DNA of 64,000 nt from Flavobacterium branchiarum (GTDB lineage: Bacteria > Bacteroidota > Bacteroidia > Flavobacteriales > Flavobacteriaceae). Each line of letters opens with the position of its first letter. Position 1 is the stretch's first letter. A program made the position numbers and the translations under genes. The stretch covers positions 1,178,001 through 1,242,000 of the forward strand of contig NZ_JAUFQQ010000003.1 in NCBI RefSeq assembly GCF_030409845.1, read 5' to 3'. This document shows positions 11,527-52,427 of this stretch, in pieces. The notes beneath the pieces are model-generated. The model was not told the origin of the DNA, ran no database searches, and worked only from the letters and a program-made list of their open reading frames with translations.

Positions 11527-11658
11527 CAAAAACTAATCCCAGTAAAGGCTCGGGTTTTCGTTCTTTTTTGCTTCTACTTTATTTTGTGTTAACAAATTGA
11601 TTCGTTTTTGAACCCTCACAGGTTTTCGTATTGATCCATGTTTTACGGGATATTTTTC

Positions 11659-11703: not shown

Positions 11704-11728
11704 AGTCTTTAGAAAACTGCTATTTATT

Positions 11729-12133: not shown

Positions 12134-12327
12134 TTTTAGATTAATTCTTTCTCTATTTGAAATTTTTTCCCTTTTTTATCTATTGTTGGGTTATTCATTC
12201 TATATCTTTCAATAAACTTTTGTGTTCAGATATTTTGGCTTATAATTGAAACTAGTAATTCGCTTGTAAATGCTATTATTGGATAATTATCGACGATCAA
12301 AAATGTTTCTAAATACCTATTAGAATT

Positions 12328-19528: not shown

Positions 19529-19905
19529 TATACTTGTGGTGTTAGTTCCCAATCCCCAGGTAGTTTCCCATAAATGGTATGAATACCATCATCCAGTAAG
19601 TCACTTTGTATAAAAAGCAATAGTCCAGCTTTCGCTTTTGCCCAATCTTTTTGAGAATCAGTCATACCTTCAAAATTATGAGCAGATTTTACCGAAACAC
19701 CTAATATATCAAGTTCATTGTTTTCTACCCTTTTCTGGCGACAATTGATTTGATGTTTTGCTCCAAATTCATCTATAACAAAATCTTCTATGCTAAAGAT
19801 TTTTGCATCTGGCATCGTTGTCCAGGAAGTAATTTCGATTTGTAACTTACCCGTTAAGCCTCCAAATCTGTTGGAGTGGGTATATGCTGTATTTAATTGT
19901 ATCAT
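19528..19905 (-). CDS. phage late protein, hypothetical
   Basis: 125 aa from the ATG at 19905; the longer open frame overlaps the fibre gene and is unlikely. No domain recognised. It follows the DUF285 fibre-like gene and overlaps the next gene by one base pair of start/stop, so it belongs to the late operon. Position suggests a fibre-associated or tail-accessory role (inference only). Confidence 0.6.
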   Translation of the reverse strand: MIQLNTAYTHSNRFGGLTGKLQIEITSWTTMPDAKIFSIEDFVIDEFGAKHQINCRQKRVENNELDILGVSVKSAHNFEGMTDSQKDWAKAKAGLLLFIQSDLLDDGIHTIYGKLPGDWELTPQV

Positions 19906-19924
19906 AATTGTCTTAAATAAATAT

Positions 19925-21103
19925 TTATGTAGTTTGTCCACCATCTTTAATAACCCAATTGTTAGGGGCAGACGTAAGTACTGCTCGTGAAGCTGCAGAT
20001 CCAGATGTATATTTAGAACTTCCAAAATCTATTTCTAAATTTGCTTTCAAAATCCTTGTGCTCCAACCATTATATAAGGCGTCTAAGTGTACTGCTGAAA
20101 ATGTTGTTGGAGTTTTTGTTTTCATAAAATCTTTGAAATTAATTACATTTGATACATTCCAATTACCTATATTTTGGTCGAAATTTAAAGCGTTATAAAA
20201 CATAGCTTTCATATTGTTAACATTATTAACATCCCATGAGTCAATAGGTTGATTAAAACTTTTAGCAGAATTAAACATAGTTCTCATATCAGTAACTTTT
20301 GAAGTGTCCCAACCTCCTATAGGTTGATTGAAGGATAAGCAATCACTAAACATTGTACCCATGTTAATAACTGTTGAAGTATTCCAATTGCTGATATCTT
20401 GATTAAATATTTTGCAACCATTGAACATTCCTTCCATTAATACCACTTTTGAAGTATTCCAGTTATTTATACTTGAGCTACCCCCATTGTCAAAATTAGT
20501 TGCTTCATCAAACATTCTTATCATATTTTCAACAGACACAACATTCCATCCACCTATATCTTGATTAAAACTTTTAGCGCCTTGAAAGAGACCTGTCATG
20601 CCCCTAATATTTGAAGTATCCCAAAGTTCTAGATGGTTTATTGTTGTTAACGATATACAATCCCTAAATGTAAATGATAAACCTCTAACCATCTTTAATT
20701 CTGGTATATCTTCGACATTAGTAAGTGTAAGATTTACACAGCCGTCAAAGGCACTACCATTAATAGTAAAAAAAAAGCTCCCCCATCGTTGAATAGTCAT
20801 TAATTTCATCTTGTCACCAGTACCTCTAAATATAAATCCATCACATTTACCAGTAATAATGACCTGATAAATTCCAACGTTTGAAAAAGTGTGGGTAGCT
20901 TCTGCCTGATTCCAAGATGTAATTCTAGATACTGTGCCATCTCCCCAATCAACACTAAAGTTATAAATTCCACCAGCGGTGAGTGGTAGTTTTATTTGGT
21001 TTATTTGACTTGACCCAGTTGAAAGATTGTCCGTTTTCCAAGTAGAGATAAATGGTTTGTATTTGCTCTTTCCAAAAACTGTATTTTGTATTAACGCTCC
21101 CAT
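19925..21103 (-). CDS. PKD plus DUF285 repeat protein, probable tail fibre or adhesin
   Basis: 392 aa. The N-terminal half has a PKD-like segment (about 45-85, FSVDWGDGTV then HTFSNVGIYQVIITG). Then come about eight solenoid repeats of 24-25 residues of the DUF285 (PF03382) kind, with the pattern MFxxAxxFNQxIxxWDxSxVxxM. DUF285 is best known from surface proteins of mycoplasmas and marine bacteria. Here it lies just past the tail collar and tail-fibre genes, so it is most likely a host-recognition fibre. It is not a target of the phage's DGR by sequence. Confidence 0.75.
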   Translation of the reverse strand: MGALIQNTVFGKSKYKPFISTWKTDNLSTGSSQINQIKLPLTAGGIYNFSVDWGDGTVSRITSWNQAEATHTFSNVGIYQVIITGKCDGFIFRGTGDKMKLMTIQRWGSFFFTINGSAFDGCVNLTLTNVEDIPELKMVRGLSFTFRDCISLTTINHLELWDTSNIRGMTGLFQGAKSFNQDIGGWNVVSVENMIRMFDEATNFDNGGSSSINNWNTSKVVLMEGMFNGCKIFNQDISNWNTSTVINMGTMFSDCLSFNQPIGGWDTSKVTDMRTMFNSAKSFNQPIDSWDVNNVNNMKAMFYNALNFDQNIGNWNVSNVINFKDFMKTKTPTTFSAVHLDALYNGWSTRILKANLEIDFGSSKYTSGSAASRAVLTSAPNNWVIKDGGQTT

Positions 21104-21105
21104 AA

Positions 21106-22059
21106 TTACAGTCCTAATAATAAAATGCTGTTAGTAGCTCCACGCTGTGTCAAGGTAAAAATCTGTTTTTCTGCAGTATTGGCAGGTGTCCCCATTAACC
21201 ATGTTTTAGGAGCTATGATAGCCCAGCCAACTGTTACACCAGGCAATGTGATACCATTAAATAAATAAGAATCAACAAGTGCTATGGGTATGGTTATAGT
21301 ACAATTAGCTGTAAAAATAACCGTTTTTCCATGCCAAGAAGGCTGTGCGTTTTGCGATGTAGAAACCTCAATTTGGTTTGAAATATCTTGTTTCCCTGTA
21401 ATGTCTTGATTGGTGACTCCAGCTAAACGAGCTATTTCCGTTTCTAAAATCAGGCTCCTTCCAGCTACCTTATCCACTTTGTTTGCTGTTAAAGCATCGA
21501 TTAAGGCTTTTAAAATTTTACCCATTTCAGCAGTCAGAGCTTTCGTGGTTCCACCCGTAGTCAAGTCATTTACCAATATCGTACTTAGAGAAATTTCAAC
21601 TTTTTTAATTGCATCGACAATTTCCTGAATAGTGTCTAAATTTATATCGTCAGATGTCAACAAAAGATTAATAGCGTCTATTTGTTCTTGTAATATCCTC
21701 CCTTGTTCTACGGTCAAGAGTGAATCTTCATCACTATTTATAAGATCATTAGCAATATTCAAGTATTGAGCTGCGATTTTTATAAATTCGTTGAGTGGCA
21801 CATAGCCGTTTACTACACCTTTTTGGGACTTATCTTCTTTTGAAGAAGTCAATTCAGGGTGAGCGTTAGGATCAGATAAGTGATGAGCCAAAACGTACGC
21901 TTCGGCTTTATCGTTTATAATTTCCTGTAACCCCTCAATATTTTCAACAGGAATTTTCTCCTCCTTAAACCAAATTGAGTCAAAAAATGACCAAAATTGT
22001 GTTTGTGTAGGTCGCAAGCCAGTGCGAAACCATTCTTTTACATTTGCTTTTAGTGCCAT
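21106..22059 (-). CDS. tail fibre/appendage protein
   Basis: 317 aa. The opening ANVKEWFRTGLRPTQTQFWSFFDSIWF is typical of Bacteroidetes phage fibres; the middle (about 95-215) is helical with LTAEMGKILKALIDAL. The C-terminal 80 residues are beta-rich and hydrophobic. It lies between the collar-domain protein and the DUF285 protein with two-base spacing, consistent with a trimeric fibre shaft. Confidence 0.7.
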   Translation of the reverse strand: MALKANVKEWFRTGLRPTQTQFWSFFDSIWFKEEKIPVENIEGLQEIINDKAEAYVLAHHLSDPNAHPELTSSKEDKSQKGVVNGYVPLNEFIKIAAQYLNIANDLINSDEDSLLTVEQGRILQEQIDAINLLLTSDDINLDTIQEIVDAIKKVEISLSTILVNDLTTGGTTKALTAEMGKILKALIDALTANKVDKVAGRSLILETEIARLAGVTNQDITGKQDISNQIEVSTSQNAQPSWHGKTVIFTANCTITIPIALVDSYLFNGITLPGVTVGWAIIAPKTWLMGTPANTAEKQIFTLTQRGATNSILLLGL

Positions 22060-22841
22060 TATCCAACGTATTTAATATAGTGAACTACTCTGTAGGGGTT
22101 CATAATTGAGAAAGATTTACCGCCACCAACTGGACTCGATTTCCCATATTTCGAAGTTGCATCATCTCCAGAGTTATTACCGCCTCCTCGCCAGTTACTT
22201 GAAGCTTGGACTAGATGCCCATCATGTGCGTGTTCTGGAAGTTCTGGAATTGATAAGGTTTTTGTTTTAGATCCTCCCGCTTTACCAACGACATCATAAT
22301 CGGAATCTTTTTCATCAAAACCAACAGGCATTTTACCCGCCATTTCTGTAATTTCTTGCCAACCAGCAGGGATTTCGTTTGCAGGACGGCCCCATAGCGC
22401 AATTAGTCCAATTGGTATATTACCCACCAATGGTCTTGCTTCTAATTTTTGAATTCTATCAATTAATCCTTGAATGTTTTTAGTTGGAAACCCTTGTTTA
22501 AAGTCAGCCCAATCCATCGCTTCAACACCAGAGCCAAACGTGATATAACGTGTTTTTATAACTGGATAGGAGTTATTGTTTTGAAACAGTAATGTTTCTG
22601 TCTCTTCTTTTATAATAACTTTTGGCTGTGTTAGTCCACCAATAAACTCAAAGGGTTCATTGTTTATAAAAACAACGCCATTACTCGTATTTGAGCCCGA
22701 TACAACACAACCAGAAATAATAGATTTGTCGCCTACAATATTCCCAAAGGCAGTAAAAAGGTTAAAAGCAGTTTGCATCCTTCCTAAAACATTGGTAGTC
22801 GTTGGAAAACCGCCAACTTGACTAAAATTTATACTATTCAT
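22059..22841 (-). CDS. phage tail collar-domain protein
   Basis: 260 aa. The C-terminal 120 residues carry the collar-domain signature IPIGLIALWGRPANEIPAGW, then KAGGSKTKTLSIPELPEHAHDG and MNPYRVVHYIKYVG, as in microcystin-dependent/collar proteins. The N-terminal half mediates attachment. Start and stop codons overlap neighbours, as in the rest of the tail operon. Confidence 0.82.
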   Translation of the reverse strand: MNSINFSQVGGFPTTTNVLGRMQTAFNLFTAFGNIVGDKSIISGCVVSGSNTSNGVVFINNEPFEFIGGLTQPKVIIKEETETLLFQNNNSYPVIKTRYITFGSGVEAMDWADFKQGFPTKNIQGLIDRIQKLEARPLVGNIPIGLIALWGRPANEIPAGWQEITEMAGKMPVGFDEKDSDYDVVGKAGGSKTKTLSIPELPEHAHDGHLVQASSNWRGGGNNSGDDATSKYGKSSPVGGGKSFSIMNPYRVVHYIKYVG

Positions 22842-23301
22842 ATATTACAAATTGATAGCTTTTACCAGCCAACACATAAAAGTCAACCAAAGCCGTTATT
22901 TCATTTATTTTTTGATTTAAAATAGAAGCAGGAACATTTATTATAAAATCAGCCATTCCGCTTATATAATTAAAATCCTGCTCTAGGTACATAACCCCTA
23001 AATACACATCGATATTTTCAGCCTGTGTGTACAAATAATCTTGATCTACTTGTGCAGTATTACCTATCGTTATTCGCCTTAAATCAGGGTCGAATTTATC
23101 ATTAATCGCTTTCCTTAAATAGCATTTTTGAGAATTATAAGAAAGCTTTTTTAAGTTGTCTTCACGTATTTGCAACCATTGATAATGCAAATTCGCAATC
23201 GGAGAAACCAAAGAGCTGAGATACCCAAATAAAACAGTCTTTCGTAAAAATGTTGGCAATAGCAATAAAACCAATCTATCCCAATCTACTTTATACCACA
23301 T
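22834..23301 (-). CDS. tail/baseplate protein at the Mu gp48 position
   Basis: 155 aa, no domain recognised with certainty. It opens MWYKVDWDRLVLLLLP and overlaps both neighbours by 8-11 bp. Lying between the baseplate-J-like gene and the collar/fibre genes, it corresponds in order to Mu gp48, a baseplate-to-fibre connector. Call rests on position. Confidence 0.6.
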   Translation of the reverse strand: MWYKVDWDRLVLLLLPTFLRKTVLFGYLSSLVSPIANLHYQWLQIREDNLKKLSYNSQKCYLRKAINDKFDPDLRRITIGNTAQVDQDYLYTQAENIDVYLGVMYLEQDFNYISGMADFIINVPASILNQKINEITALVDFYVLAGKSYQFVIYE

Positions 23302-24118
23302 AGCTCACATTGTCAAAATTAGGCACTACAAAATACCCGCTTTCCGGTACAGTTTTTACCGTGATAGGTTGTGGTGGCAAATAAGTATTTGTATTAATAT
23401 CAATAATCTGAGATTCCGCATTTACGATATTTGGAATTCTTACCCCTTCAATATTTTTTAATTTTGTTTCCAAATCAAACAACACTAACTCACCATTAAA
23501 AGGAAGCTCCTTCATGTACTCCAATATAGCTTCCTGAACTGGGTAATTACCGTTTAAAATGCTCATACCAGTTGCATCGATAACTAATGAATCACGAAAT
23601 ATTTGTAAGTTCAACAGCAAAATGTCAGGTAAATGATTTACCACAATATATTTTACACCACAATCTGCAATTTCACTCATGTAGGCATCAAAGGATGCTT
23701 TTTGAGGAGTAGAAATTGGAGATAAAACGCCATCGCTTTCAGTTGCAATTTTTATCAGCAGTTGTCCAGCTGATTGTGTCACTGCTGAATATTTAATTAT
23801 TTTAGAATTTTCAATTTGTTCCTCCGTAAATCCGACATTATCATACTTGTCGGTATCTTCAATTAAATCAAAACCATACTGAAATGCTTTTGCTTTGGTT
23901 CTGTACCAAGATGGTCTATGAGGAAATTGTTGCTCTATAATATCAGTAACTTCTGCTTTATGAGTGTCGAAAAGAGAGTCTAAAAGCCAAATTGCATAAC
24001 TAATTATAAATATAAATCGTCTATAAATTGCTGATTGACTTATCGAATTTGGGAGCGTTGAATCAGCAGCTATTTTAGCGTAAATTTCGTTTGAAATATC
24101 TGTTATTTTTTTTGCCAT
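23291..24118 (-). CDS. baseplate protein, J-like (Mu gp47 position)
   Basis: 275 aa. It has an N-terminal helical part (ITDISNEIYAKIAADSTLPN), a middle beta region and a C-terminal section with LPFNGELVLFDLETKLKNIEGV, the pattern of baseplate-J proteins ending in an additive segment. Gene order (spike, gp46-like, LysM-like, this, gp48-like) supports a baseplate wedge role. Confidence 0.65.
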   Translation of the reverse strand: MAKKITDISNEIYAKIAADSTLPNSISQSAIYRRFIFIISYAIWLLDSLFDTHKAEVTDIIEQQFPHRPSWYRTKAKAFQYGFDLIEDTDKYDNVGFTEEQIENSKIIKYSAVTQSAGQLLIKIATESDGVLSPISTPQKASFDAYMSEIADCGVKYIVVNHLPDILLLNLQIFRDSLVIDATGMSILNGNYPVQEAILEYMKELPFNGELVLFDLETKLKNIEGVRIPNIVNAESQIIDINTNTYLPPQPITVKTVPESGYFVVPNFDNVSYVV

Positions 24119-41944: not shown

Positions 41945-42523
41945 TTATTTTAATCTACTTGACATATTTTTAAGATACCAAAGATTATCAACTTGTGTTT
42001 TTGCAAAATTATACCAATACCCGTCTGCATCTTTTCTTACGCTATAAATTTGAGTAGTCAAAGTTTTTTCCGTTGTTGCTGTAGGTTCAATATTTTTTTG
42101 ATAAAATGGGTATAAATCAAGAAACTTTCCTTTAACAAAATCAAAAACGTATTCTTTTGTTCCTTCTATTTCTAAGTCTGGATTAGCTCCAAGGTGATTA
42201 ACTTTAAAATGTACCGTTATACAATTATCAAGTTGTAATTCATATCTGCCGGTGTAAATAGCAAGATATGCCTCAATTCCTTTTTTTTCCGTTTCGGTTA
42301 TTCCTTCTTTTACATAAACAAAAGTTACTAATTGTAAATAATTGGATTGCTTTGAAGTCAGGAAAATATATTTCGTTTTTGCAGTTGAAATAATATCATC
42401 CGAAAGTGTCCGTGCAAAATTAAAATCGCATTTATTTGCCTTCTTCAAAAGATCAATATTTTGAGCTTTTGAAATCAAGCAAAAAAGAAGTAATAAAAGG
42501 TGTAATAGTTTTTTCATAATCAT
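41945..42523 (-). CDS. exported hypothetical protein
   Basis: 192 aa (a second Met two codons in may be the start). A clear signal peptide (LLHLLLLLFCLISKAQ) implies export to the periplasm. The mature part is alpha/beta with no recognised domain. It is the last gene of the operon that includes the DGR, 1 bp after a membrane protein gene. Possibly a lysogenic conversion gene. Confidence 0.6.
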   Translation of the reverse strand: MIMKKLLHLLLLLFCLISKAQNIDLLKKANKCDFNFARTLSDDIISTAKTKYIFLTSKQSNYLQLVTFVYVKEGITETEKKGIEAYLAIYTGRYELQLDNCITVHFKVNHLGANPDLEIEGTKEYVFDFVKGKFLDLYPFYQKNIEPTATTEKTLTTQIYSVRKDADGYWYNFAKTQVDNLWYLKNMSSRLK

Positions 42524-42524
42524 T

Positions 42525-42731
42525 TCAATGTGTTTCCAGCCATTGTTTTAGTTTTTCGCTTTCCAAATGTATATATAAAAGATGATAAGATATACATATA
42601 AGTGAGAAAAATAATATAATACAAAAAATAAGAAAAATCATGTCTAACTTTTTTTGTTTTGATTCCAGTGCTGAAATGACACTAGTTTCTTCCGCTCGAT
42701 GTCTATAAATTATTTCGGCATACTTGTCCAT
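42525..42731 (-). CDS. small membrane protein
   Basis: 68 aa. One transmembrane helix (about 30-52, MIFLIFCIILFFSLICISYH) separates a charged N-terminus from a short charged tail. No family recognised. Adjacent to the exported protein gene, with which it may work. Confidence 0.55.
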   Translation of the reverse strand: MDKYAEIIYRHRAEETSVISALESKQKKLDMIFLIFCIILFFSLICISYHLLYIHLESEKLKQWLETH

Positions 42732-42792
42732 AATTCAAATGTATTAAGGTTAGTTAAATATTTTTAACGGATTTCCGTAGTTGTTGTCTTTT

Positions 42793-43089
42793 TTAAGTAA
42801 ATTCTAAATGTTCTGATTCTTTTATTATTGTTGTTTTGAATGGGAATTTGTCTTCAGGTACTTGTTTAATCATTTGCATTAAAATGTTTGATCCTGTGAA
42901 TAAAACGTGTTTGATGCCTGATTTTTCGAGTTGAAGTATCAAGAGCTTTGTTCCTTGTTTTACTTTCGAATCCTCAATTTTATAGGCTAGTACTGATATT
43001 TCGGCATTTAATAATCTATCTATTTTTATTTTGTCGCCTGTAAAAGTGGATAATTCGGCTTTTATTTTAAAATCTTTAAAATTGTTCAT
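42793..43089 (-). CDS. DGR-associated small protein, function unknown
   Basis: 98 aa. The gene overlaps the end of the reverse transcriptase gene by 14 bp, so the two are translationally linked. The sequence is beta-rich (ELSTFTGDKIKIDRLLNAEI, LLILQLEKSGIKHVLFTGSN, FPFKTTIIKE) and could be an OB-like nucleic-acid binder. It is not the four-helix Avd type. I remember similar small genes near Bacteroidetes phage reverse transcriptases. Confidence 0.65.
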   Translation of the reverse strand: MNNFKDFKIKAELSTFTGDKIKIDRLLNAEISVLAYKIEDSKVKQGTKLLILQLEKSGIKHVLFTGSNILMQMIKQVPEDKFPFKTTIIKESEHLEFT

Positions 43090-44038
43090 TGGGAAGTATT
43101 TTTTTTAATAAGTGTTTGGAATTGCAATGTTTCGCCCATCCATTATAAGCGGCTATAGTAGCCTTGTTTTTTGTTTTGGAAACTGCCTTAGCAAATCGTT
43201 TTTTAATTGATTTCCGAAGCAGTGTGTGCGTGTGGTAGAACTTGTAGCCTACAAAATCAATTCCACGAGATTCAACAGGGAACACCTGATAATTATCTTT
43301 TACCTGAAGTTTTAAATTGGCGTTTAAATACTGTTTAATATATGATAAAATAGCGTGTAAATGAGGTTTGTTATTCGAAAGAATTACAATGTCATCGGCA
43401 TATCTGAAGTAATATTTAATGCCTCTGTTTTCCTTTATCCAATGGTCAAAATAGGTAAGATAAAAGTTAGCCAGGTATTGGCTTAGATAATTCCCTATTG
43501 GTAAACCATCAGCGCTATCAATAATTTCGTCCAGTAGCCAAAGTAGGTCATTGTCCTTGAATTTCTTCCTAAGTAATGCTTTTAGTATATCATGATCTAC
43601 ATTAGGATAAAACTTGACAATATCCAACTTCAAACAGTATTTTGTATTATCCTGGTCTTTTAAGGCTATTTTGATATTGTTGGCAGCTGCATGAATTCCT
43701 TTTTTCTTTATACACGCATAGCTATCTTCTGTAAAAACCTTTACAAATATTGATTCTAAAACATTCATTACAGCATGATGGGTAATTCGGTCAGGGAAGT
43801 AAGGAAGACGAAAAACAAGTCTTTCTTTAGGCTCAAAAACGGTGAAGGTTGTGTATTGTGAGGTTTTATACTCTTTATTTAAAAGCATCTCATGAAGTTT
43901 GATAATATAGCTTTCGGGGTCTTTATCAAAAATCTTGACACCATATTGATTGGATTTACCTTTTCTTGCTTTAGTTTCGGCAATCCTTAAATTATCAACA
44001 GATGCAATCTGACTGTATAAATTATTGATTCGTTTCAT
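43076..44038 (-). CDS. reverse transcriptase of a diversity-generating retroelement
   Basis: 320 aa, a bare RT without maturase or endonuclease domain. RT motifs in order: YIIKLHEMLLNKEYK, RLVFRLPYFPDRITHHAV, CLKLDIVKFYPNVDH (first catalytic Asp), GLPIGNYLSQYLANFYL (the IGxxxSQ form typical of DGR enzymes), and RYADDIVIL (catalytic YADD). It copies the template repeat RNA with errors at adenines and feeds cDNA into the variable repeats. The gene lies just downstream of the template repeat, and the two target genes lie just upstream of that. Confidence 0.95.
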   Translation of the reverse strand: MKRINNLYSQIASVDNLRIAETKARKGKSNQYGVKIFDKDPESYIIKLHEMLLNKEYKTSQYTTFTVFEPKERLVFRLPYFPDRITHHAVMNVLESIFVKVFTEDSYACIKKKGIHAAANNIKIALKDQDNTKYCLKLDIVKFYPNVDHDILKALLRKKFKDNDLLWLLDEIIDSADGLPIGNYLSQYLANFYLTYFDHWIKENRGIKYYFRYADDIVILSNNKPHLHAILSYIKQYLNANLKLQVKDNYQVFPVESRGIDFVGYKFYHTHTLLRKSIKKRFAKAVSKTKNKATIAAYNGWAKHCNSKHLLKKILPNEQF

Positions 44039-44145
44039 TGCTTTGCTTAGATTGGCTCGCTTTCAATTACTTTACTAACGAACCTATTAATTTTGTGTTT
44101 TTTTGCCCTGTTGGCAAGGTCTGTGGTGTTTAATATTTTAAGCTC

Positions 44146-44220
44146 AGGTGCGAGCTGACATTCGAATTCGTGTTCCAATTATCGTAGTCGTTGTACGAAA
44201 AACTGCCACCTGAAGGAGAA
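44146..44220 (-). repeat. DGR template repeat (TR)
   Basis: 75 bp between the second variable gene and the RT. On the minus strand it could encode SPSGGSFSYNDYDNWNTNSN, with five AAC/AAT codons. It aligns without gaps to 44334-44408 (14 differences) and to 44715-44789 (12 differences). Every difference falls at one of the 19 adenines of the template (T on plus); all 56 other positions match in both copies. Homology fades past 44145 with a C-to-A change, as at an IMH boundary. Confidence 0.96.
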
Positions 44221-44251
44221 CTACAGCAACGACACCACACAACCTCATTTA

Positions 44252-44626
44252 TTATGCTTTTACGAAATAGCTTTTGTATAATTCTTCAAACTGTTTTCCA
44301 GCATACTTTGCCATATCTCTGGTTTGAAAGCAAAGGCGCGAGCCGACAGCCGAAAGCGTGAGCCAACTATCGTAGCCGTAGCACGAAAAACCGCCACCCG
44401 AAGGAGAAACCATCTTGAACCATGGATGGTATTTATACTGATCCCAATCATTCCAGTCTGGTACCCAGTCGCCGTTTATGGCTTTAGCTATGATTACTAA
44501 TTTGGTGTGATCAATCATTGCCTGTCTATCTGATTCTGGAAATAATGAGAAATCAGGAATAATAATTGCCGGGTCAAGGTTCAAAACCTTACAAGCATCT
44601 TCGAATGTTTTAATATCTGTGTACAT
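44252..44626 (-). CDS. DGR variable protein 1
   Basis: 124 aa. The N-terminal part (FEDACKVLNLDPAIIIPDFS) and GDWVPDWNDWDQYKYHPWF resemble a widespread Bacteroidetes phage protein. Residues 74-98 are the variable repeat: SPSGGGFSCYGYDSWLTLSA then VGSRL, followed by a conserved CFQTRDMAKYAGKQFEELYK tail. Five template Asn codons are replaced here by Y, S, L, L, A. The surface it diversifies and its ligand are unknown; it is not a tail fibre by position, lying in the early/middle operon. Confidence 0.92.
   Translation of the reverse strand: MYTDIKTFEDACKVLNLDPAIIIPDFSLFPESDRQAMIDHTKLVIIAKAINGDWVPDWNDWDQYKYHPWFKMVSPSGGGFSCYGYDSWLTLSAVGSRLCFQTRDMAKYAGKQFEELYKSYFVKA
44334..44408 (-). repeat. DGR variable repeat 1 (VR1)
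   Basis: Gap-free match to the template at a constant offset of 188 bp with 14 of 75 differences, all at template adenines. Confidence 0.95.
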
Positions 44627-44635
44627 AATATGGTT

Positions 44636-45112
44636 TTAAGCGGTTAAAAAATCTTTGTAAATACTCTCAAACAATTGTCCGGCATGTTTGGCTAAATCAG
44701 CTGATTTAAAGCAAAGGCGCGAGCCGACAAACGAATACGTGTGCCAATAAGCGCAGTCGTCGTACGAAAAACCGCCACCCGAAGGAGAACCCATCTTAAA
44801 CCATGGATAGTATTTATTTTGACTGCTATCTGACCAGTCTGGTACCCAACCTTCGTTGAATGCTTTTACTATTTCTTTGATCATCTTATAAGCAACTTCG
44901 TCTGGTGACATTCCCTCGCATGATTCTCTGAACTTTTTTTCTGAAACCCCATTTTCCCGAAGCGCATCATTAAGGCTCTTGACACGTTCTTTTATTTCTG
45001 GTTGAAAGGTTTTCATTCCGAAAATGTTTTCTAAGAATACTTTTCTACCACCTTTTGCTTTGTTGTAAGCAGTTATTACTTTGCCTTTATCGGCTGTTAA
45101 TGTTTCATTCAT
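44636..45112 (-). CDS. DGR variable protein 2
   Basis: 158 aa. The N-terminal 90 residues differ from variable protein 1 (MNETLTADKGKVITAYNKAK), while NEGWVPDWSDSSQNKYYPWF onward is homologous. Residues 109-133 are the variable repeat, SPSGGGFSYDDCAYWHTYSF then VGSRL, with the five template Asn codons changed to D, Y, H, Y, F. The gene ends 9 bp before variable protein 1. The pair is a duplication of the target cassette with different N-terminal modules. Confidence 0.92.
   Translation of the reverse strand: MNETLTADKGKVITAYNKAKGGRKVFLENIFGMKTFQPEIKERVKSLNDALRENGVSEKKFRESCEGMSPDEVAYKMIKEIVKAFNEGWVPDWSDSSQNKYYPWFKMGSPSGGGFSYDDCAYWHTYSFVGSRLCFKSADLAKHAGQLFESIYKDFLTA
44715..44789 (-). repeat. 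DGR variable repeat 2 (VR2)
   Basis: Gap-free match to the template at an offset of 569 bp with 12 of 75 differences, all at template adenines. Confidence 0.95.
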
Positions 45113-45131
45113 TTTGTTGATTGTTTAATAA

Positions 45132-45569
45132 TTAATATTCGTCGTTGTATCTTTTTTGATTTAACCAAGTCACTAAATGCGCTTTTGCTTGTCCTGTTTT
45201 TGCCAAATCGGCTTCGTATTTTGGAATCACATTAAAAACTTTTATCTTGGTGGGCAAGTCTAGTTTTTCGTAGGCCTTTTTGGCTAAATCGCCTTTCCTT
45301 TTTAGTCCATACTTATTATAAAGAGCTTCGAAACTATAATCTTCCAGTTTAAGTTCGATAGTTACAATGTGTTTGTACTGACTCCATTCTTCTATCATTG
45401 CTACTGTTTCAGGAAATGTTCTTTTTTTGAACAAATTAAAAATGCCGATTCCTTTTGGATCATTAAAAAAAGAATGGAGATTTCCATCTGATTTCCGATA
45501 CTGAAAAACCCATTTTTCTTTGGTTTCTTTGAAAGTAACCTCATAGGTTACATATTTATTTTCTTCCAT
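45132..45569 (-). CDS. hypothetical early phage protein
   Basis: 145 aa, soluble, charged (YVTYEVTFKETKEKWVFQYR). No domain recognised. It lies 19 bp upstream of the variable-protein genes in the same operon and might serve the retroelement or be a separate early function. Confidence 0.6.
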   Translation of the reverse strand: MEENKYVTYEVTFKETKEKWVFQYRKSDGNLHSFFNDPKGIGIFNLFKKRTFPETVAMIEEWSQYKHIVTIELKLEDYSFEALYNKYGLKRKGDLAKKAYEKLDLPTKIKVFNVIPKYEADLAKTGQAKAHLVTWLNQKRYNDEY

Positions 45570-45575
45570 TTAAAT

Positions 45576-45716
45576 CTATTTTAAAAGGTATTTAACTGGT
45601 TTAACGTGTTGAAAATTCTTTGCTATTTTGCGAGCTTCTTCTACGAGTCGTGCTTCGGTATCAAAAATTGACTCTTTTTTTGCATCTGGTTTTCTTCGTT
45701 TTTTGTTGATATACAT
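45576..45716 (-). CDS. 46-aa basic small protein
   Basis: A short frame MYINKKRRKPDAKKESIFDT with a 26-residue tail, whose ATG overlaps the upstream stop (TAATG) and which ends 7 bp before the next start codon. The coupled layout supports translation. It is highly basic at the N-terminus and may bind nucleic acid. Confidence 0.5.
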   Translation of the reverse strand: MYINKKRRKPDAKKESIFDTEARLVEEARKIAKNFQHVKPVKYLLK

Positions 45717-46048
45717 TAGGCTAATTTTTGATTCAATAGGTTAATTACTTTTTGGATTTCTAGTTTGATGTAGGAGTCATGAATCCCTTTTATTTGTTGA
45801 AGGAGTAAGAGCTCCAGCATATCAGCCTCGTGAAACTTTAATGATACTGTTATTTTCTTTTTGGCATTAAATTGGTTTCTTTTAGCCTTGATATGAACCG
45901 CTTTCCCATCTAATTTAGTAGCTAAGTCAAGAGCGATTGAAAGGATTGACTTTTCTCTCCTGGTTAATGCTTTGCTGTTATATACTGCCTCAATTGTGGC
46001 GGCTACAATCAATGCGGTTTCGGGGTTAAGTTTTAAGTCTATTTTCAT
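45716..46048 (-). CDS. hypothetical early phage protein
   Basis: 110 aa, mostly helical (TALIVAATIEAVYNSKALTR, HEADMLELLLLQQIKGIHDS). No family recognised. Its stop overlaps the ATG of the 46-aa gene downstream; upstream neighbour ends 2 bp away, so it belongs to a tight early operon. Confidence 0.6.
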   Translation of the reverse strand: MKIDLKLNPETALIVAATIEAVYNSKALTRREKSILSIALDLATKLDGKAVHIKAKRNQFNAKKKITVSLKFHEADMLELLLLQQIKGIHDSYIKLEIQKVINLLNQKLA

Positions 46049-46049
46049 T

Positions 46050-46193
46050 TTAGCATTCTGTTTTTGGTGGTTCTAAGGCTTCTCCACAAGTAGAGCAAAC
46101 TAGTTGTGTTGTTTCGCAAGTAACACAAGTGCTTATTATTTTGATTTCGGCTATGTCATGTGAACATACTTCAGTGATGCTGTAGGTTTCCAT
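46050..46193 (-). CDS. 47-aa Cys-rich zinc-ribbon-like protein
   Basis: The frame METYSITEVCSHDIAEIKII is followed by STCVTCETTQLVCSTCGEAL. Two CxxC pairs 8 residues apart plus an upstream C/H suggest a zinc knuckle. It sits 1-2 bp from both neighbours in the early operon. Confidence 0.55.
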   Translation of the reverse strand: METYSITEVCSHDIAEIKIISTCVTCETTQLVCSTCGEALEPPKTEC

Positions 46194-46194
46194 T

Positions 46195-46566
46195 TTACTT
46201 GCATTTTTTGTTGTAATGATGCACTACAATAGCTTTAAGAGCAGTAATTATTTTCTCAAGCTCTTGTTTATTCATATTCATTAGTGGTTTTCTAACTGGC
46301 GATTTTTCACTTTTTAAAAAATCACTTAGTTTGTTTAAATCGGCAATTACTCCCCATTTTTCACTTGGCAAGCTCCATTCTTTACTAATACATATAGAGC
46401 GTATTAATTTGTGAACTTTGGCATATTTATGTTCTGGTTCGAACAATCCCCAATTATCTTTACCATTCCGATTTCCATTTACAATGTCGGTGAGCTGTTT
46501 TTTTGGATTATTATAATTGTCAATGGCAGAACCAGTGCCTGTATAAACTTGTGCTTTAGTTGCCAT
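46195..46566 (-). CDS. early phage protein, possible GemA-position counterpart
   Basis: 123 aa. The segment KVHKLIRSICISKEWSLPSE then LSDFLKSEKSPVRKPLMNMN and LEKIITALKAIVVHHYNKK matches a conserved Bacteroidetes transposable-phage protein I remember without function. The ending MNKQELEKIITALKAI resembles the GemA/DUF1018 tail, and the location after the transposition genes agrees, but the link is weak. Confidence 0.55.
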   Translation of the reverse strand: MATKAQVYTGTGSAIDNYNNPKKQLTDIVNGNRNGKDNWGLFEPEHKYAKVHKLIRSICISKEWSLPSEKWGVIADLNKLSDFLKSEKSPVRKPLMNMNKQELEKIITALKAIVVHHYNKKCK

Positions 46567-46852
46567 AACCTTTCAATATTTGAAAAACCAAAGAATGAAA
46601 ACCACTTATCATAAATCCTTTACTATAATGCATATCAACAATTGATATTTTTAGGCCCTGACATCGACGATGAATTTCATTAAGTTCTAATGATTTATTT
46701 ATTATTTCACTTTTTAAATCTTCAAGCTTGTTAACCTCAATAATTGTAGCAGATAAAGATTTTAAGTAATTTTGAAATTCATCTTGCAACTTGTTTTTTG
46801 TAGCGTTGCTGTGCCCTACATACACGAAATAATGTGTTACCTTTTTTTCCAT
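46556..46852 (-). CDS. hypothetical early phage protein
   Basis: 98 aa from ATG 46852; the longer open frame to 46900 begins inside the tRNA-like element and reads the familiar spurious T-arm translation, so it is rejected. It starts MEKKVTHYFVYVGHSNATKN and is helical. Function unknown. Confidence 0.55.
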   Translation of the reverse strand: MEKKVTHYFVYVGHSNATKNKLQDEFQNYLKSLSATIIEVNKLEDLKSEIINKSLELNEIHRRCQGLKISIVDMHYSKGFMISGFHSLVFQILKGYGN

Positions 46853-46874
46853 TTTATTTATTTTAAAATTTTGC

Positions 46875-46918
46875 TCCCGAGGCAGGATTCGAACCTGCAA
46901 GAACCATCAGGCTCGGGA
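46875..46918 (-). ncRNA. tRNA-like minihelix or degenerate tRNA
   Basis: On the minus strand TCCCGAG (7 nt) pairs with CTCGGGA as an acceptor stem. A perfect T arm (GCAGG, loop TTCGAAT, CCTGC) abuts the 3' strand with no gap, as in real tRNAs. Only 13 nt (CCTGATGGTTCTT) replace the D and anticodon arms. The 3' end reads GCA. It lies in a 90-bp gap of the early operon. Confidence 0.6.
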
Positions 46919-46941
46919 AACCGAATTAACTAACCAATAAT

Positions 46942-47139
46942 CTATTTATGCTTATAAGTTGCTTTACTGTGTTTTTTAAGGGCTTCAATATTGGAATGAT
47001 TTCGACGATCATTTTCATATTGTTTTAATGTTACATGAATTTTGAATCTTAACCAGGCGATGTAAGTGGCTATCTCCTTTTTGTTTGTACCAATCAGCAC
47101 TATGACTAATATTAGTATTGTTGTAGTGTATTCATTCAT
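46942..47139 (-). CDS. small membrane protein
   Basis: 65 aa. A hydrophobic N-terminal helix (TTTILILVIVLIGTN) is followed by a basic tail. Its ATG overlaps the stop of the DUF3164-like gene. Could be a host-takeover or anchoring peptide; no family recognised. Confidence 0.5.
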   Translation of the reverse strand: MNEYTTTILILVIVLIGTNKKEIATYIAWLRFKIHVTLKQYENDRRNHSNIEALKKHSKATYKHK

Positions 47140-47828
47140 TACACTGTGAATCTAAATTCTAACTTTCGAGTTCTATTATCTCCAATATCTATATGTTTCC
47201 ATCCAGAAACATATGTGCTACCTTTGGTCTTATTTTGAGCATCGACGATTATGTCCATTCCTTCATCAAATTCAGGTGAATTGAAATCACTTCTCATTTG
47301 ATTGAGTTGAATTATTCTTCCCGGGTTAAGCATTCCTGTTTTTAAATTTGGTTTAAGAAAAAACTTGACCGCTTTTGCAAGTTTCGCTGCGTTTTCATCA
47401 TCGTCTCCTCCTGATAATGCTGTGATATAATTCATTATTTTTTGAACACCTGCAGTTTCAGTTCCATCAAATGAAATCCCTGGATTGTAGCCTATAGTTA
47501 TACTACAAGATCCATCAGGATGTGTCACCGTATGACTATCTTGATCTAATCTATCAAGTCCGTATATACTTGCTTTTAGGTCTAAATAATGTGTTAGTCC
47601 TTTGAAAATTCCTGCCACGGTTTTCTCCATGTCAATTTGTTTAAAGGCTAAAGAATCTATATTGTTTTCTAAAAACTCAATGCCAATTTCTTTTAGAGTT
47701 GCAACATTGGCTTTATGAGCTTCCTTTTCTGCTTTTTCTTCTTGAGCAAGTTGTTTTTTTAAAACCTTTTTATCTGCTATTGATAAATTTGTAATATCAA
47801 TTGGTGTTGTTGGTGTTTCTGTCATCAT
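47139..47828 (-). CDS. DUF3164-like early phage protein
   Basis: 229 aa. A charged coiled coil (about 25-45) precedes a domain containing TVTHPDGSCSITIGYNPGIS, the VKFFLKPNLKTGMLNPGRII region and VSGWKHIDIGDNRTRKLEFR. This resembles DUF3164 proteins encoded in the early region of Mu-like phages near the nuclease-inhibitor Gam. Biochemical role unknown. Confidence 0.6.
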   Translation of the reverse strand: MMTETPTTPIDITNLSIADKKVLKKQLAQEEKAEKEAHKANVATLKEIGIEFLENNIDSLAFKQIDMEKTVAGIFKGLTHYLDLKASIYGLDRLDQDSHTVTHPDGSCSITIGYNPGISFDGTETAGVQKIMNYITALSGGDDDENAAKLAKAVKFFLKPNLKTGMLNPGRIIQLNQMRSDFNSPEFDEGMDIIVDAQNKTKGSTYVSGWKHIDIGDNRTRKLEFRFTV

Positions 47829-48052
47829 GTTTGTATTTCGGGATTAATTACTTCTATTGTGTTTGGACTTATTATTGAATATTGAATGTTGTATCTAAAT
47901 TTATCCCTAAGTTCTTTTAGAAATTCACATTCTAAATTGTAATCGTGTGGGATAATTACTGTTCGTTTCTTGGCGTAATACTCAAATCGCTCTTTAATTT
48001 TTTGATGCAATTTGTAACGTCTGTTTTGCTCAGGAGTACGTTTAAGTTTCAT
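47825..48052 (-). CDS. small basic early phage protein
   Basis: 75 aa, very basic N-terminus (MKLKRTPEQNRRYKLHQKIK). It overlaps the following gene by 4 bp. Might be a recombination-mediator or NinB-like fragment, but no family can be shown. Confidence 0.5.
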   Translation of the reverse strand: MKLKRTPEQNRRYKLHQKIKERFEYYAKKRTVIIPHDYNLECEFLKELRDKFRYNIQYSIISPNTIEVINPEIQT

Positions 48053-48347
48053 CTGTTATCAAAAATCTACTTTGATCAAAGCCACCCCAATTGGTAGCTT
48101 CTATTTTTTTAACCACCAATTGTATCTTAGAATCAATTGTTTTAGAGACTTTACTTTGTCTAACTTCTGAAGCAAAAACCTCTTTATTTAAAAAAGCAAG
48201 TTGACTAAGAAGTGCTCCTCTTTCTTGGTTAATGCAAATTCGTTCAGGAAGTGAAAAACTTTCGATTTTACCTTCCTTTTGCTGATCTGAGCAATAGATT
48301 AGTACATTGTATAAAATGTTTAATCTGGCATATATTTGGAGACTCAT
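48042..48347 (-). CDS. hypothetical early phage protein
   Basis: 101 aa, helical (LQIYARLNILYNVLIYCSDQ). It overlaps the next gene by 11 bp. No domain recognised. Confidence 0.5.
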   Translation of the reverse strand: MSLQIYARLNILYNVLIYCSDQQKEGKIESFSLPERICINQERGALLSQLAFLNKEVFASEVRQSKVSKTIDSKIQLVVKKIEATNWGGFDQSRFLITDET

Positions 48348-48358
48348 ATTGGTTAGTT

Positions 48359-48709
48359 TTAATTGGTTGAAAAGACTTTTACACCTTGAGGTGTTTTGCT
48401 TCGTTTAATTTGAGATAGTAAAGACATAGGTCTATAATTGAATAAATACATCAAACAATCATGATAACACTTTTCTAAATCTCTAGCAGTTACACTTGTC
48501 TGTGTGTAACGATCTGTTAACTTGTGAAACTCAATTTCACAGTTTGTCAATTCCATCCTAAACCATGAATTAATAGAACTGTTGGCTAAAACTTGTTGAT
48601 ATTCAAGAGTTGTTATGCTTACGCTTTCACACCAGTTATTGTAAAAATTCCAAATCATACTTTCGTATTGATCCTGTGTGATGTTTAATTTTTTAATTAC
48701 TGTTTTCAT
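48359..48709 (-). CDS. hypothetical early phage protein
   Basis: 116 aa from ATG 48709; a longer frame would overlap the ATPase gene. It contains NITQDQYESMIWNFYNNWCE and a helical middle. The stop is 12 bp before the next gene. Function unknown. Confidence 0.5.
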   Translation of the reverse strand: MKTVIKKLNITQDQYESMIWNFYNNWCESVSITTLEYQQVLANSSINSWFRMELTNCEIEFHKLTDRYTQTSVTARDLEKCYHDCLMYLFNYRPMSLLSQIKRSKTPQGVKVFSTN

Positions 48710-48722
48710 AGTGATGTTGCTT

Positions 48723-49358
48723 TTATTGTTTTCCGTGTAAATCTTCATATCCTTTTTGCCAAACGACATATTGTGTTGCGTTTGGTCCAAACTTCCTTCC
48801 TTTATTTGTAGCCAAATAACCGCTTACAACTACCTTCTGTGTTGCATCAAATTTTATCCTGTCCTCAAATTCGGTTTTAGGATTTTGTCCTTTTCCATGG
48901 CCTATAAAAACCAATGTTTTGTTTTTAAATTTTTTTCTGAAATTCAAGTAGTCTTCAAATGAATAACCCATAAAAAAATAAGGAACCGAATCTATTACAA
49001 CTACCTGGGCGCTGTTTCTACGCTTTAGCCGTTCTGTGAGTTGCTCTAAACTATCATCAACTAGAATAAAATTCTTTGCTACATCCTGCATCTGGAATAG
49101 CTTTAATCTGTCTTGTAGATTTTCATCGTCTAAATCCTCCTCTCTTGATACCAGAATGGTTTTTTCGGTTAAAGCGAATTCTTTAATCAATTGCATGACA
49201 AATGAGCTTTTACCGCTCGAACTATCTCCCCAAATAAACCAACGTCCTTTTTTTTGAGGGTTTCCAAAAACATCATAAAATCGACCTTTGAACATAATGA
49301 CTGATACAATTACAGAAAGTACATTTGATACGGTTAAAGCTCTTTTTAATTCTGCCAT
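48723..49358 (-). CDS. P-loop ATPase next to MuB
   Basis: 211 aa. Walker A is FIWGDSSSGKSSFVMQL (about residue 42) and Walker B is QVVVIDSVPYFF; a further GHGKGQNPKTEFEDRIKFDA loop resembles RecA-like ATPases. It starts 2 bp after the MuB-like gene. A second ATPase in the transposition operon is not found in Mu; it may help strand exchange, target choice or replication start (inference). Confidence 0.75.
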   Translation of the reverse strand: MAELKRALTVSNVLSVIVSVIMFKGRFYDVFGNPQKKGRWFIWGDSSSGKSSFVMQLIKEFALTEKTILVSREEDLDDENLQDRLKLFQMQDVAKNFILVDDSLEQLTERLKRRNSAQVVVIDSVPYFFMGYSFEDYLNFRKKFKNKTLVFIGHGKGQNPKTEFEDRIKFDATQKVVVSGYLATNKGRKFGPNATQYVVWQKGYEDLHGKQ

Positions 49359-49359: not shown

Positions 49360-50298
49360 TTATGCTGAAAGAAGCTTTGGCATTCCTAAAATTGTTCTAA
49401 CAAAATCCTCAGTGAGGAGCTGACCAGTTCTGTCAGCTTCTTTCATTGCAGGTACAAGTACATCGTGCAATTCACCGTAGTTATCGCAATTTTGTTTTAA
49501 GAACTTAATGAGTGCTTTGTCTTCAATTTGTTCTAAAAACATTGAAAAAGAACGATCAATACTTGGTAATTCGCGGATTCCAAATTTTATTCTACGGTAA
49601 AACTGTGGTATTCCAGAACGGTTCTTTTTTCGAAGCTTGTCAAGGTTATCGGTTAACTGGCTTGTACCAATTAGGGTGATTCCGCAAATTCCTTTTAGTG
49701 CATCGTACAATTCTTTCATAGAACATAAAGCCGGTTGTTTCATGTACTCACACTCATCAAAAATCAAGTGTGGTTTTTGTCCTTCCAGTTTTAACTGTTT
49801 TAGCTTTTTAGCTACTTCACCAATTTTTTTACTTTTGGTTTTTGGAGTGGCTATTTTAAGAGAATCAATGATCTTATCTAACAAATCACCTATCGTGTCT
49901 AATGAGCCTACAACAATTTTGTAAGTATCAACCGGATTAGCTTTTAAAAACACATCCGATATATAGCTTTTGCCTGACCCTGTTTCGCCAATGATAATAT
50001 TTGTTACGCCGTTTTCTTTAGCATCTTCTAAGGTTGAAAGCATGCGGAATAATTGAGGTGTTTCTTTCAATGCCCAATATTCTTTTATTAGGGACAATCC
50101 AATAAATTCAGCAATCATTAAGTACCATTTATCTTTTATCTCTGATTTACCTACTGTAGCTTTGTTGTGATAAATACTTGATATATAACTTTCGTTAATG
50201 CTTGACCTTTTTGAAACTTCGTTAGCTGAGATATTATGCAGGTCTAAATACTGTTTTAAAGCCTCAGATACTTGCTGTTTTTGAAGTGTTGTAATCAT
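49360..50298 (-). CDS. MuB-like transposition ATPase
   Basis: 312 aa. The N-terminal HTH (about 8-55, HNISANEVSKRSSINESYIS) is followed by an AAA domain: Walker A NIIIGETGSGKSYISDVF, Walker B PHLIFDECEYMKQ and sensor ITLIGTSQLTDNL. The C-terminal helical domain binds the transposase in Mu. It overlaps the transposase stop by 4 bp. It delivers target DNA and blocks self-integration. Confidence 0.9.
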   Translation of the reverse strand: MITTLQKQQVSEALKQYLDLHNISANEVSKRSSINESYISSIYHNKATVGKSEIKDKWYLMIAEFIGLSLIKEYWALKETPQLFRMLSTLEDAKENGVTNIIIGETGSGKSYISDVFLKANPVDTYKIVVGSLDTIGDLLDKIIDSLKIATPKTKSKKIGEVAKKLKQLKLEGQKPHLIFDECEYMKQPALCSMKELYDALKGICGITLIGTSQLTDNLDKLRKKNRSGIPQFYRRIKFGIRELPSIDRSFSMFLEQIEDKALIKFLKQNCDNYGELHDVLVPAMKEADRTGQLLTEDFVRTILGMPKLLSA

Positions 50299-52427
50299 AG
50301 GTTAGTGTATTTGTTTAGGTTAACTTTATCTTTTAAATAATTGTTCTGTGTTTCTTGCCAGCTAGACTCTTCTAGTCCTCTTTCTCTCTTCTCCTGCTTT
50401 ATTGCGATGCGTTCCGTTGCTTTTTTTAGCCTTTCCATTGCTTTTTGATCTTTATGTTGTCCAAGGCTGTCAGGAATCATTAATTTTTTAAGGGTGTCTA
50501 ATCTTGGATTGTCATCGAATAGATTGGTTAAAACTTCTCTTTGTTGAACCCCTCTTAAAATGATTTCCTCATTCATACGGCGGTTATAATCATAAACCAA
50601 TTGTCTTTGTTGTGCATCACCTTGTTGTTGATCGTATAAAGACATTGGCTGAATGTATTTTTCTGTTAGAAGAAACTCCATTGTGCCAATTTCTTCTATA
50701 AGCCTTCCGTCTCGACCTTTGGCATTACTAACCAAAATTTGACTTAAATCATCTGAATCATAAAAAATCATCCAATCCTCGTGCATATGTTTTCTAAAAC
50801 TCAAATCAAATGAATCGTAGAATCTTTTAACCCCTTCAATGGTTGGTGTCAATCCGTTATCTTCCATTTTATTGGTATATCCAGTTGTTACTCCATAAGT
50901 GCGTAAATACTGATTAAGTGTCATTCCTATTTTATCTTCAAAAGCAAGAAAACTGTTCACGAAGGATTCTACTTTTTCAGAACGTTCGTTTGCAATGGCA
51001 TTTTCTATTTGTGCAATACAGCCTAACTTGTCTGGAAACAAATGGCGGTGTTTGGATAAATAATCACCATTTACTTGGTTATCATTCTTTGAAGTAACGT
51101 TGTGACCTGACCAGTTCAATACCATTTTTTCTTGAAAATGCTGTTCGTTGAACTTGTCAAAAAATTGTTCTACGGGCTTACTCTTTGCATTCTTTACTTT
51201 TGCGGGAGTAAAATGCTTTGCTGTAGCTTCATAAACAGGTTTAAGGTTTTTTAGCTGATAGTGGTCGGTCTGTAACTGATAGGGTTTGTATTTTTCGCCA
51301 AATAATTCTTCAGTATGTTTAAGAGCATTTTTTAAAGCTGATCTTATCAGCGTAGGGCTTTCTTTTTCTCCAATTGCATAACCTACTATGTAATTATTAA
51401 AAGGATCAAGTATTATTACGGCAGTCAGCCTATTGTGATAGGTTGTAACTGATTTTCCATTTTTATCAACCCCCGTTTTTTGATAAAGAAGTTCGGCATC
51501 CCACCCATCCATTGACCAAAACAACATTGAGGCACTTGGTTTACTTCTTTTAATCTGCATGTGTTTTTGATGCATTAGGCTCGTCTCACCGTGTTGTCCT
51601 GCAAAAACATATAAGTCCAGTTTTTCACGATAATTTGCAATTACACCAGCATCTATAGTTTTCCAACCGATGGCACCCGCTACATCATTATAATGTCTTA
51701 CAATTTGCTCGTTATTTAAGTTTTGATGTTTACCAAGTAACACCTCAATAAGCGCTAATTGTTCATCATCTTTAACTTTAGCCGCATTTTTAGAACCGTA
51801 TTTTTTAGATATAATACACGAATAATCTTCTTTTATAAACCGGTTTACTTTGTGGCGCAAACTGTCTTTGGTAGTGGGTAAATCGTGGTTTACTTGCTGA
51901 AAAGCGTTAACGTCGTTACTTAAGCTTTGCCAGATATCAAATTGTCCGGTAAGACCTAATGACTTTGTGTATAATTTTCGCTTTTGGCGAACTTCTAGTA
52001 TCGTATTTAATACCGATGCATTATAAGTGTACAATTCGATCGCTTCGGGAGGTAATTTTTTATTGTTATCCTCACCATAACGATGTGCTGCAAAAAAATC
52101 AAATGCTTTTCGATCGCTTATGTAATGTTTTTCAAAGAACGATGCCCTAACTTTTTCGGTGGGCTTACCAAATTTGAACACCAATGTATCCCTCCACTCT
52201 TGTATCAAAGAATCAAACTCGACTAATGCATCAAAACCAAGTGACCCCCTTCTTAATTCTCTCTCTGGCTGGGTTTTGCTTTGAGTTCGACCATATAATG
52301 CCCGATATGAAATGAGTTTTAAGCTATCCTCATGACTGCTAACAATTTTATCATTTTTAATCAAAAACTTGATTTTTACTCCAAGTTTATCATTATGATA
52401 TTCAAATGGGGTTTCTTTTTTTTCCAT
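50295..52427 (-). CDS. MuA-like DDE transposase
   Basis: 710 aa. The DDE core is visible: first Asp in MLFWSMDGWDAELLY (about residue 310), second in YQLQTDHYQLKN (about 395), Glu in VEQFFDKFNEQHF (about 430). A Mu-type C-terminal beta-barrel and a basic tail follow, and the N-terminal 250 residues hold the end-binding helix domains. It performs replicative transposition and initial insertion; the array at 53561-53800 and the palindrome at 18184 are likely binding sites. Confidence 0.92.
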   Translation of the reverse strand: MEKKETPFEYHNDKLGVKIKFLIKNDKIVSSHEDSLKLISYRALYGRTQSKTQPERELRRGSLGFDALVEFDSLIQEWRDTLVFKFGKPTEKVRASFFEKHYISDRKAFDFFAAHRYGEDNNKKLPPEAIELYTYNASVLNTILEVRQKRKLYTKSLGLTGQFDIWQSLSNDVNAFQQVNHDLPTTKDSLRHKVNRFIKEDYSCIISKKYGSKNAAKVKDDEQLALIEVLLGKHQNLNNEQIVRHYNDVAGAIGWKTIDAGVIANYREKLDLYVFAGQHGETSLMHQKHMQIKRSKPSASMLFWSMDGWDAELLYQKTGVDKNGKSVTTYHNRLTAVIILDPFNNYIVGYAIGEKESPTLIRSALKNALKHTEELFGEKYKPYQLQTDHYQLKNLKPVYEATAKHFTPAKVKNAKSKPVEQFFDKFNEQHFQEKMVLNWSGHNVTSKNDNQVNGDYLSKHRHLFPDKLGCIAQIENAIANERSEKVESFVNSFLAFEDKIGMTLNQYLRTYGVTTGYTNKMEDNGLTPTIEGVKRFYDSFDLSFRKHMHEDWMIFYDSDDLSQILVSNAKGRDGRLIEEIGTMEFLLTEKYIQPMSLYDQQQGDAQQRQLVYDYNRRMNEEIILRGVQQREVLTNLFDDNPRLDTLKKLMIPDSLGQHKDQKAMERLKKATERIAIKQEKRERGLEESSWQETQNNYLKDKVNLNKYTNL

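Follow-up and report, generated by a model that had tools for sequence, protein, structure and literature searches.

A probable diversity-generating retroelement with paired small targets and a predicted OB-fold gene in a Mu-like prophage of Flavobacterium branchiarum

The diversity-generating retroelement (DGR) of Bordetella phage BPP-1, arranged as mtd/avd/TR/brt, possesses Avd and a single tail target, Mtd, according to its record annotation. In crAss-like phages such as crAssphage LMMB, the DGRs follow the order target, template repeat (TR) and reverse transcriptase (RT) and have no avd, as described in PMC7290462, which, citing Wu et al. 2018, places these elements in 'lineage 3' of that work. 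Among Bacteroidota, PMC6199706 describes the DGR of Hankyphage, a Mu-like transposable phage of Bacteroides. Its variable repeat (VR) lies at about residue 2,200, in the C-terminal end of a large C-lectin protein, and a small open reading frame (ORF) of the phage was compared with Avd on account of its size and charge. The locus described here lies in a window of 64,000 nucleotides (nt), i.e., the whole stretch of DNA analysed (contig NZ_JAUFQQ010000003.1, positions 1,178,001 to 1,242,000), from the 5.0-Mb, five-contig assembly GCF_030409845.1 of Flavobacterium branchiarum. It is in all probability a genuine and recently active DGR residing in a Mu-like prophage, and its lineage is one of Bacteroidota phage DGRs that rewrite paired small early-region proteins and keep a conserved gene for a predicted OB-fold protein beside the RT.

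Cassette layout and variation at template adenines

The cassette is encoded on the minus strand in the order VP2-VP1-TR-spacer-RT-orf98. The two variable proteins (VPs) are paralogues belonging to phrog_11581, a family of unknown function; VP2 (44636..45112, 158 amino acids (aa)) contains VR2 (44715..44789) and VP1 (44252..44626, 124 aa) contains VR1 (44334..44408), both repeats lying near the 3' end of their gene with 26-27 codons after each. The 75-nt TR (44146..44220) is followed by a structured spacer RNA (44039..44145), the gene of the 320-aa RT (43076..44038) and orf98 (42793..43089), which encodes a predicted OB-fold protein of 98 aa, a candidate RT accessory, and overlaps the 3' end of the RT gene by 14 nt. 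On re-alignment, the initial annotation was right in its description and coordinates of TR, VR1, VR2 and RT, and the unit was found to reach position 42793, taking in the predicted OB-fold ORF and the structured spacer. Its description of the DGR as 'complete' holds for the TR, the VRs and the RT, but not for Avd, no gene of which was found beside the RT, where the predicted OB-fold gene occupies the accessory position.

Ungapped minus-strand alignment of the TR revealed 14 differences over 75 nt to VR1 and 12 to VR2, every one of these 26 at a template adenine, as had been claimed. The TR contains 19 adenines, and its 56 non-adenine positions are identical in both VRs, so that the search for other differences, on which the initial claim had been staked, found none in the alignment. 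With mismatches scattered randomly over the 75 sites, the chance of 26 of 26 falling on 19 of them is approximately (19/75)^26, or about 3e-16, a figure that ignores the shared history of the two VRs. Near-identical TR and VRs with adenine differences, an RT of the DGR clade and VRs near the 3' end of the target genes are all present, as expected of a DGR.

The same signature is found across the family, since an adenine-only TR/VR pair occurs in all 51 RT-bearing loci scanned (the window, two further copies in its own genome and 48 viral loci). TR windows picked for zero non-adenine mismatches are biased, and a count on held-out VRs was therefore preferred; in 38 of these from 35 loci, mismatches affect 558 of 807 adenines versus 61 of 2218 other positions, i.e., 69% at adenines versus 2-4% at the other bases. 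Not all adenines vary freely. Each of the six VRs in the genome has G at the adenines of TR offsets 9, 16, 64 and 71 (0-based), and thus the diversified core holds 15 adenines over about 34 nt, leaving roughly 10 differences in VR1 and 8 in VR2 as real diversification. Family-wide, the motif AGCTCnCAY is present in 42 of 51 TRs, and its two 3' adenines are G in 64/67 and 65/67 VRs, versus 421/1148 for adenines upstream of the pair. Since the fixed G at the first of the four flank adenines (offset 9) is a silent change, the fixed A/G flanks of the varied core may correspond, at least partly, to conversion-tract edges, together with selection for the GSRL end of the encoded region.

A whole-genome search with the TR pattern, leaving adenines free and allowing at most three other mismatches, retrieved nine places, namely three identical TRs and six VRs, all different. 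Eight of the nine have no non-adenine mismatch, while the VR in VP2 of copy C has one single non-adenine difference. The window (copy A) and copy B (locus L006) share about 98% identity over 42518-48763. However, 17 of 150 VR positions differ between A and B, all at template adenines, whereas the remainder of the cassette differs at 40 of 2170 (Fisher p 3.7e-8). This restriction to adenines, at a rate far above that of the surroundings, indicates that the DGR acted recently and, with the evidence of all three copies, sustains the earlier proposal that it has acted since the copies diverged. Between A and B, the VRs and their edge codons contain 19 nonsynonymous and no synonymous changes, while the ratio of nonsynonymous to synonymous substitution rates (dN/dS) is 0.07-0.17 for the RT and for the VPs outside their VRs; for the RT alone it amounts to 0.159 (A-B) and 0.048 (A-C). 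The TR shows 0/75 differences between A and B; on this pair alone, its conservation does not significantly exceed that of the RT (Fisher p 0.40). Copies A and C differ at 135 of 963 nt in the RT and 8 of 107 in the spacer, versus none over 77 nt in the TR. At the A-C rate of the RT, 75 nt would remain unchanged with a chance of about 1e-5 and, thus, the TR appears to be kept by selection or to have been exchanged recently between A and C. As judged from the sequences, TR conservation with VR change is consistent with unidirectional, RT-dependent mutagenic homing. Three copies with a common TR and six different VRs in one genome offer a natural assay of retrohoming, of where conversion tracts end and of any cross-talk among the cassettes.

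The reverse transcriptase, the spacer RNA and the predicted OB-fold gene

DGR-clade RTs are characterized by the motif [IVL]GxxxSQ. The RT of the window contains IGNYLSQ and YADD, both as initially reported, and matches RVT_1 (E 1e-19) and phrog_1423 (E 4e-123). In a quick tree, the placement that the initial annotation had proposed as a check, it groups with the DGR RTs of ACA1, phiARM81mr, BalMu-1, crAss-like phages and BPP-1, and is separate from seven other RTs of the same and related genomes on which the tree was rooted, although three outgroup rows are gappy, and BPP-1 and the outgroup were flagged as long branches of unsure placement. The closest solved structure is chain 8ub7 (E 5e-42), compared with E 4e-18 for a group II intron RT, while the closest named RT is that of Flavobacterium sp. 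AED (87% aa identity). A group II intron or retron RT is disfavoured by the tree and by the PDB and PHROG matches; the top NCBIfam match is group_II_RT_mat (E 2e-34), but all the NCBIfam matches listed fall under their cut-offs.

The spacer between TR and RT shows compensatory changes in its helices. Among 34 aligned spacers, 11 of 13 consensus pairs have both partners altered in one or more sequences, and the covariation score is 0.702, compared with 0.244 after shuffling and at most 0.152 in slid versions, with a structure predicted from the alignment used for scoring, which favours it. The related Rfam family RT-17 (RF03020) matches the window at 44034-44121 with 33 bits, under the gathering score of 40.4, and is at or above that score in 7 of 20 loci scanned, while phage LBR48 matches RT-18 instead. 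A model of the spacer (R1), applied at E <= 0.1, matched 85 of 100 sources once each, with all matches ending at most 45 nt from the RT start, in a search space of 1.58 Mb that contains 16 of the 34 training rows. The 15 sources in which R1 had no match are five stretches of the same genome without a DGR, locus L145 and nine sources with a DGR RT (L193, L206, L207, L211, LMMB, Versailles, BalMu-1, BPP-1 and BT-TP2). This covarying RNA may be the portion of the template transcript that binds the RT and serves in priming.

The orf98 gene lies beside 111 of the 117 RTs of loci not fetched via orf98 itself (48/48 fetched with VP2, 60/66 fetched with the RT and 3 of the own genome). The total set comprises 140 RT loci, 23 of them fetched with orf98 and some on contigs fetched twice (L032/L122, L035/L123, L033/L124, L038/L125 and L043/L127); counting the 115 RTs that are distinct by their last 200 residues, orf98 is present beside 109, including loci without the VP family. 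The gene is located upstream as well as downstream of the RT and is fused to it in two cases. Moreover, in genome searches with orf98 alone, 10 of 10 places in sampled genomes adjoin a DGR RT. In the orf98-fetched viral set, L145 is the sole locus of 24 with an orf98 relative and no detected RT.

In the window, none of orf98, VP1, VP2, o145 and o110 matches bAvd at E 0.1. Among the neighbours of relatives (105 of 216 listed ORFs plus three controls), bAvd matched 3 of 108, which equals the number of Avd controls added, one of them named in the output and two inferred. The own genome gave no bAvd match above the cut-off; four sub-cut-off bAvd-like matches lie away from the three DGR copies (G000:C5:521220, C3:868734, C3:1080143 and C3:1117009). 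As for more distant homologues, hhalign to orf98 gave 64% for the second ORF of Versailles and 97.9% for the RT tail of BT-TP2, while the C-terminal RT tails of cr55_1 and LMMB scored 8% and 0.3% as fused orf98; the small ORFs after the RTs of BPP-1, ACA1, phiARM81mr, LBR48 and Perkons have no hhalign support as orf98 homologues. The crAss-like RTs of cr55_1 (L212) and LMMB (L216) possess C-terminal extensions of about 90 residues that could be diverged OB domains. The predicted OB-fold protein may serve the RT as a nucleic-acid-binding cofactor in place of Avd, and it may correspond to an accessory protein in the survey of Wu et al. 2018. DGRs devoid of Avd lack an explained cofactor, and a dedicated predicted OB-fold gene, twice fused to the RT, provides a concrete candidate.

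Prophage setting and the role of the variable proteins

The assignment to a Mu-like prophage is borne out by a MuA-type transposase (50295-52427, minus strand; phrog_310, E 1.6e-29) and a MuB-like ATPase (49360-50298, minus strand; AAA_22, E 2e-10), accompanied by a set of phage head and tail genes. Head genes occupy the plus strand and tail and early genes the minus strand, on which the DGR is the distal part of the early genes. The cassette is directly preceded by the early gene o145 (45132..45569, minus strand; phrog_35156, with weak replication-initiation matches), whereas the tail fibre gene of the same prophage (21106..22059, minus strand; phrog_19602, E 1.5e-8) is 22 kb away and contains no VR. 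The proteins of prophage C are mostly 20-60% identical (aa) to those of prophage A, with one late gene at 90%, but the RT reaches 91%, orf98 94% and the VPs 78-81%. Since the cassette proteins are more alike than most other proteins of the two prophages, the DGR cassette appears, by sequence comparison, to move between phages as optional cargo. Prophage D (C3:1759-1799 kb), syntenic and Mu-like, with an o145 of 65% aa identity, has no DGR.

Within window 19061-24118, prophage D (L030/L031, G000:C3:1759100-1798900) shares 93-97% aa identity with prophage A in the tail-end genes at 19061-21103 and 48-82% in the adjoining tail genes, versus about 20-65% in the head and early genes, a contrast indicating that a tail-end module was exchanged separately from the DGR module. 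A 500-nt stretch of the window (11638-12142) is 88% identical to the surroundings (L007) of a fourth, different RT of the genome.

In other loci, most of the named families listed for the neighbourhood of the cassette serve replication, recombination or DNA modification. The upstream scan covered 110 of 134 ORFs, plus nine long ones, one already in the 110. The 25 of 85 families listed for the 110 ORFs include replication initiation, RecT, SbcC, recombinase, DnaB and transposition, while among the nine long proteins six have matches to DNA primase families, one to an FtsK-like family, one to an SbcC-like family and one to a family of unknown function only. Downstream (96 of 178 ORFs), the 25 of 84 families listed include DNA helicase, methyltransferases and pyrophosphatase, with a neck/tail-completion family in four.

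VP2 has relatives in 54 viral loci, 48 of which carry the RT and all these 48 also orf98, while among 299 sampled genomes of the genus, the own genome counted, the VP family occurs in seven. VP-family genes without an RT nearby, found in L239 (G239), L240 (G289), L241 (G146; a contig of 4.2 kb) and L034, are orphans or lie on contigs ending early. None of 56 VPs has a membrane-like stretch (19 residues with a Kyte-Doolittle mean of at least 1.6). No C-lectin fold was recognized in the VPs by the approaches used: the VR is of low confidence in the AlphaFold2 model, the fold search gave no useful match and hhalign reached at most 17%.

Given that both targets are small and free of membrane segments and lie among replication and early genes in many phages, VP1 and VP2 might work within infected or lysogenic cells and not as tail tips, a suggestion made with less certainty than the roles proposed for the OB-fold protein and the spacer. 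The corresponding overall picture is tentative and, in our estimation, has somewhat less than an even chance of being correct: a widespread lineage of Bacteroidota phage DGRs would combine the RT, a hairpin template RNA and an OB-fold cofactor, without Avd, and hypermutate paired intracellular early proteins as a repertoire against changing targets within the host (defences, competing phages or replication factors) instead of receptors. If true, hypermutation would reach into the cell interior through twin small targets encoded among replication genes, while viral DGR targets have mostly been read as tail proteins. The chief alternative, a quite conceivable one that nonetheless falls short of being probable, is an ordinary phage DGR in which VP1 and VP2 are small receptor-binding virion subunits and the early-region position is incidental. 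For clades 1, 4 and 6, PMC8144416 reports that most viral DGR targets have annotations as tail structure proteins, and contrasts these with non-structural or cellular targets; related RTs in four crAss-like records adjoin genes annotated as tail proteins, and the GSRL that ends the VR-coded region is also C-terminal in two crAss targets. Such virion subunits agree poorly with the predominance of replication and early genes among the named neighbours, whether the phage is Mu-like or not, with a tail fibre gene 22 kb off and with VPs of only 124 and 158 aa.

Two narrower alternatives concern orf98 and the present state of the element. That orf98 is an unrelated early gene, encoding a phage single-stranded DNA-binding (SSB)-like protein and standing beside the RT by position only, is unlikely: replication genes do flank it and OB folds are common in phage SSB-like proteins, yet it accompanies nearly all distinct RTs, on either side, with two fusions and in loci without the VP family too, and every orf98 place in the sampled genomes adjoins a DGR RT. 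Less likely still is a DGR that is now silent, with old VR diversity and three separately acquired copies that have seen no recent action in this lineage. Copy C does sit in a distant phage; against this, copies A and B are almost identical around the cassette and nevertheless differ at 17 VR positions, and neither the RT nor orf98 is interrupted in any of the three copies, their dN/dS values lying far under 1.

In the explanation proposed, the DGR is optional cargo that a Mu-like prophage carries at the far end of its early operon; the sequences show the TR as the unchanged template and VR1 and VR2 as copies altered at template adenines in two paralogous small genes. Following established DGR biology, the RT would copy the TR RNA with mutagenesis at adenines, and the cDNA would replace the VR core. 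The spacer RNA would provide RT binding and priming, and the predicted OB-fold protein, sometimes fused to the RT, would act as its nucleic-acid-binding cofactor, replacing Avd, and the diversified twin proteins could, less certainly, work inside the infected or lysogenic cell.

Comparison with described systems

The window DGR resembles that of BPP-1 in its RT family, in a VR near the 3' end of the target, in a TR beside the RT and in adenine-only differences, those of BPP-1 being taken from the literature. It differs in its twin small early-region targets, in orf98 instead of Avd and in a spacer model that does not match BPP-1. The Rfam RT-17 RNA occupies the same position 5' of the RT as the window spacer; seven relatives pass its gathering score, but the window copy does not.

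By RT, the crAss-like records are the nearest phage records (about 50-59% aa identity), and the spacer RNA model matches four of five crAss loci. Their target is, in contrast, a tail protein, and orf98 was not detected there by profile, although the C-terminal extensions of some of their RTs may be a diverged equivalent of orf98, with a Foldseek match to the RT of cr7_1 (E 7e-3). With Hankyphage, finally, the window element shares a Mu-like host phage in Bacteroidota; where Hankyphage has one large C-lectin target and a small Avd-like ORF, the window has a pair of small early proteins together with a predicted OB-fold ORF.
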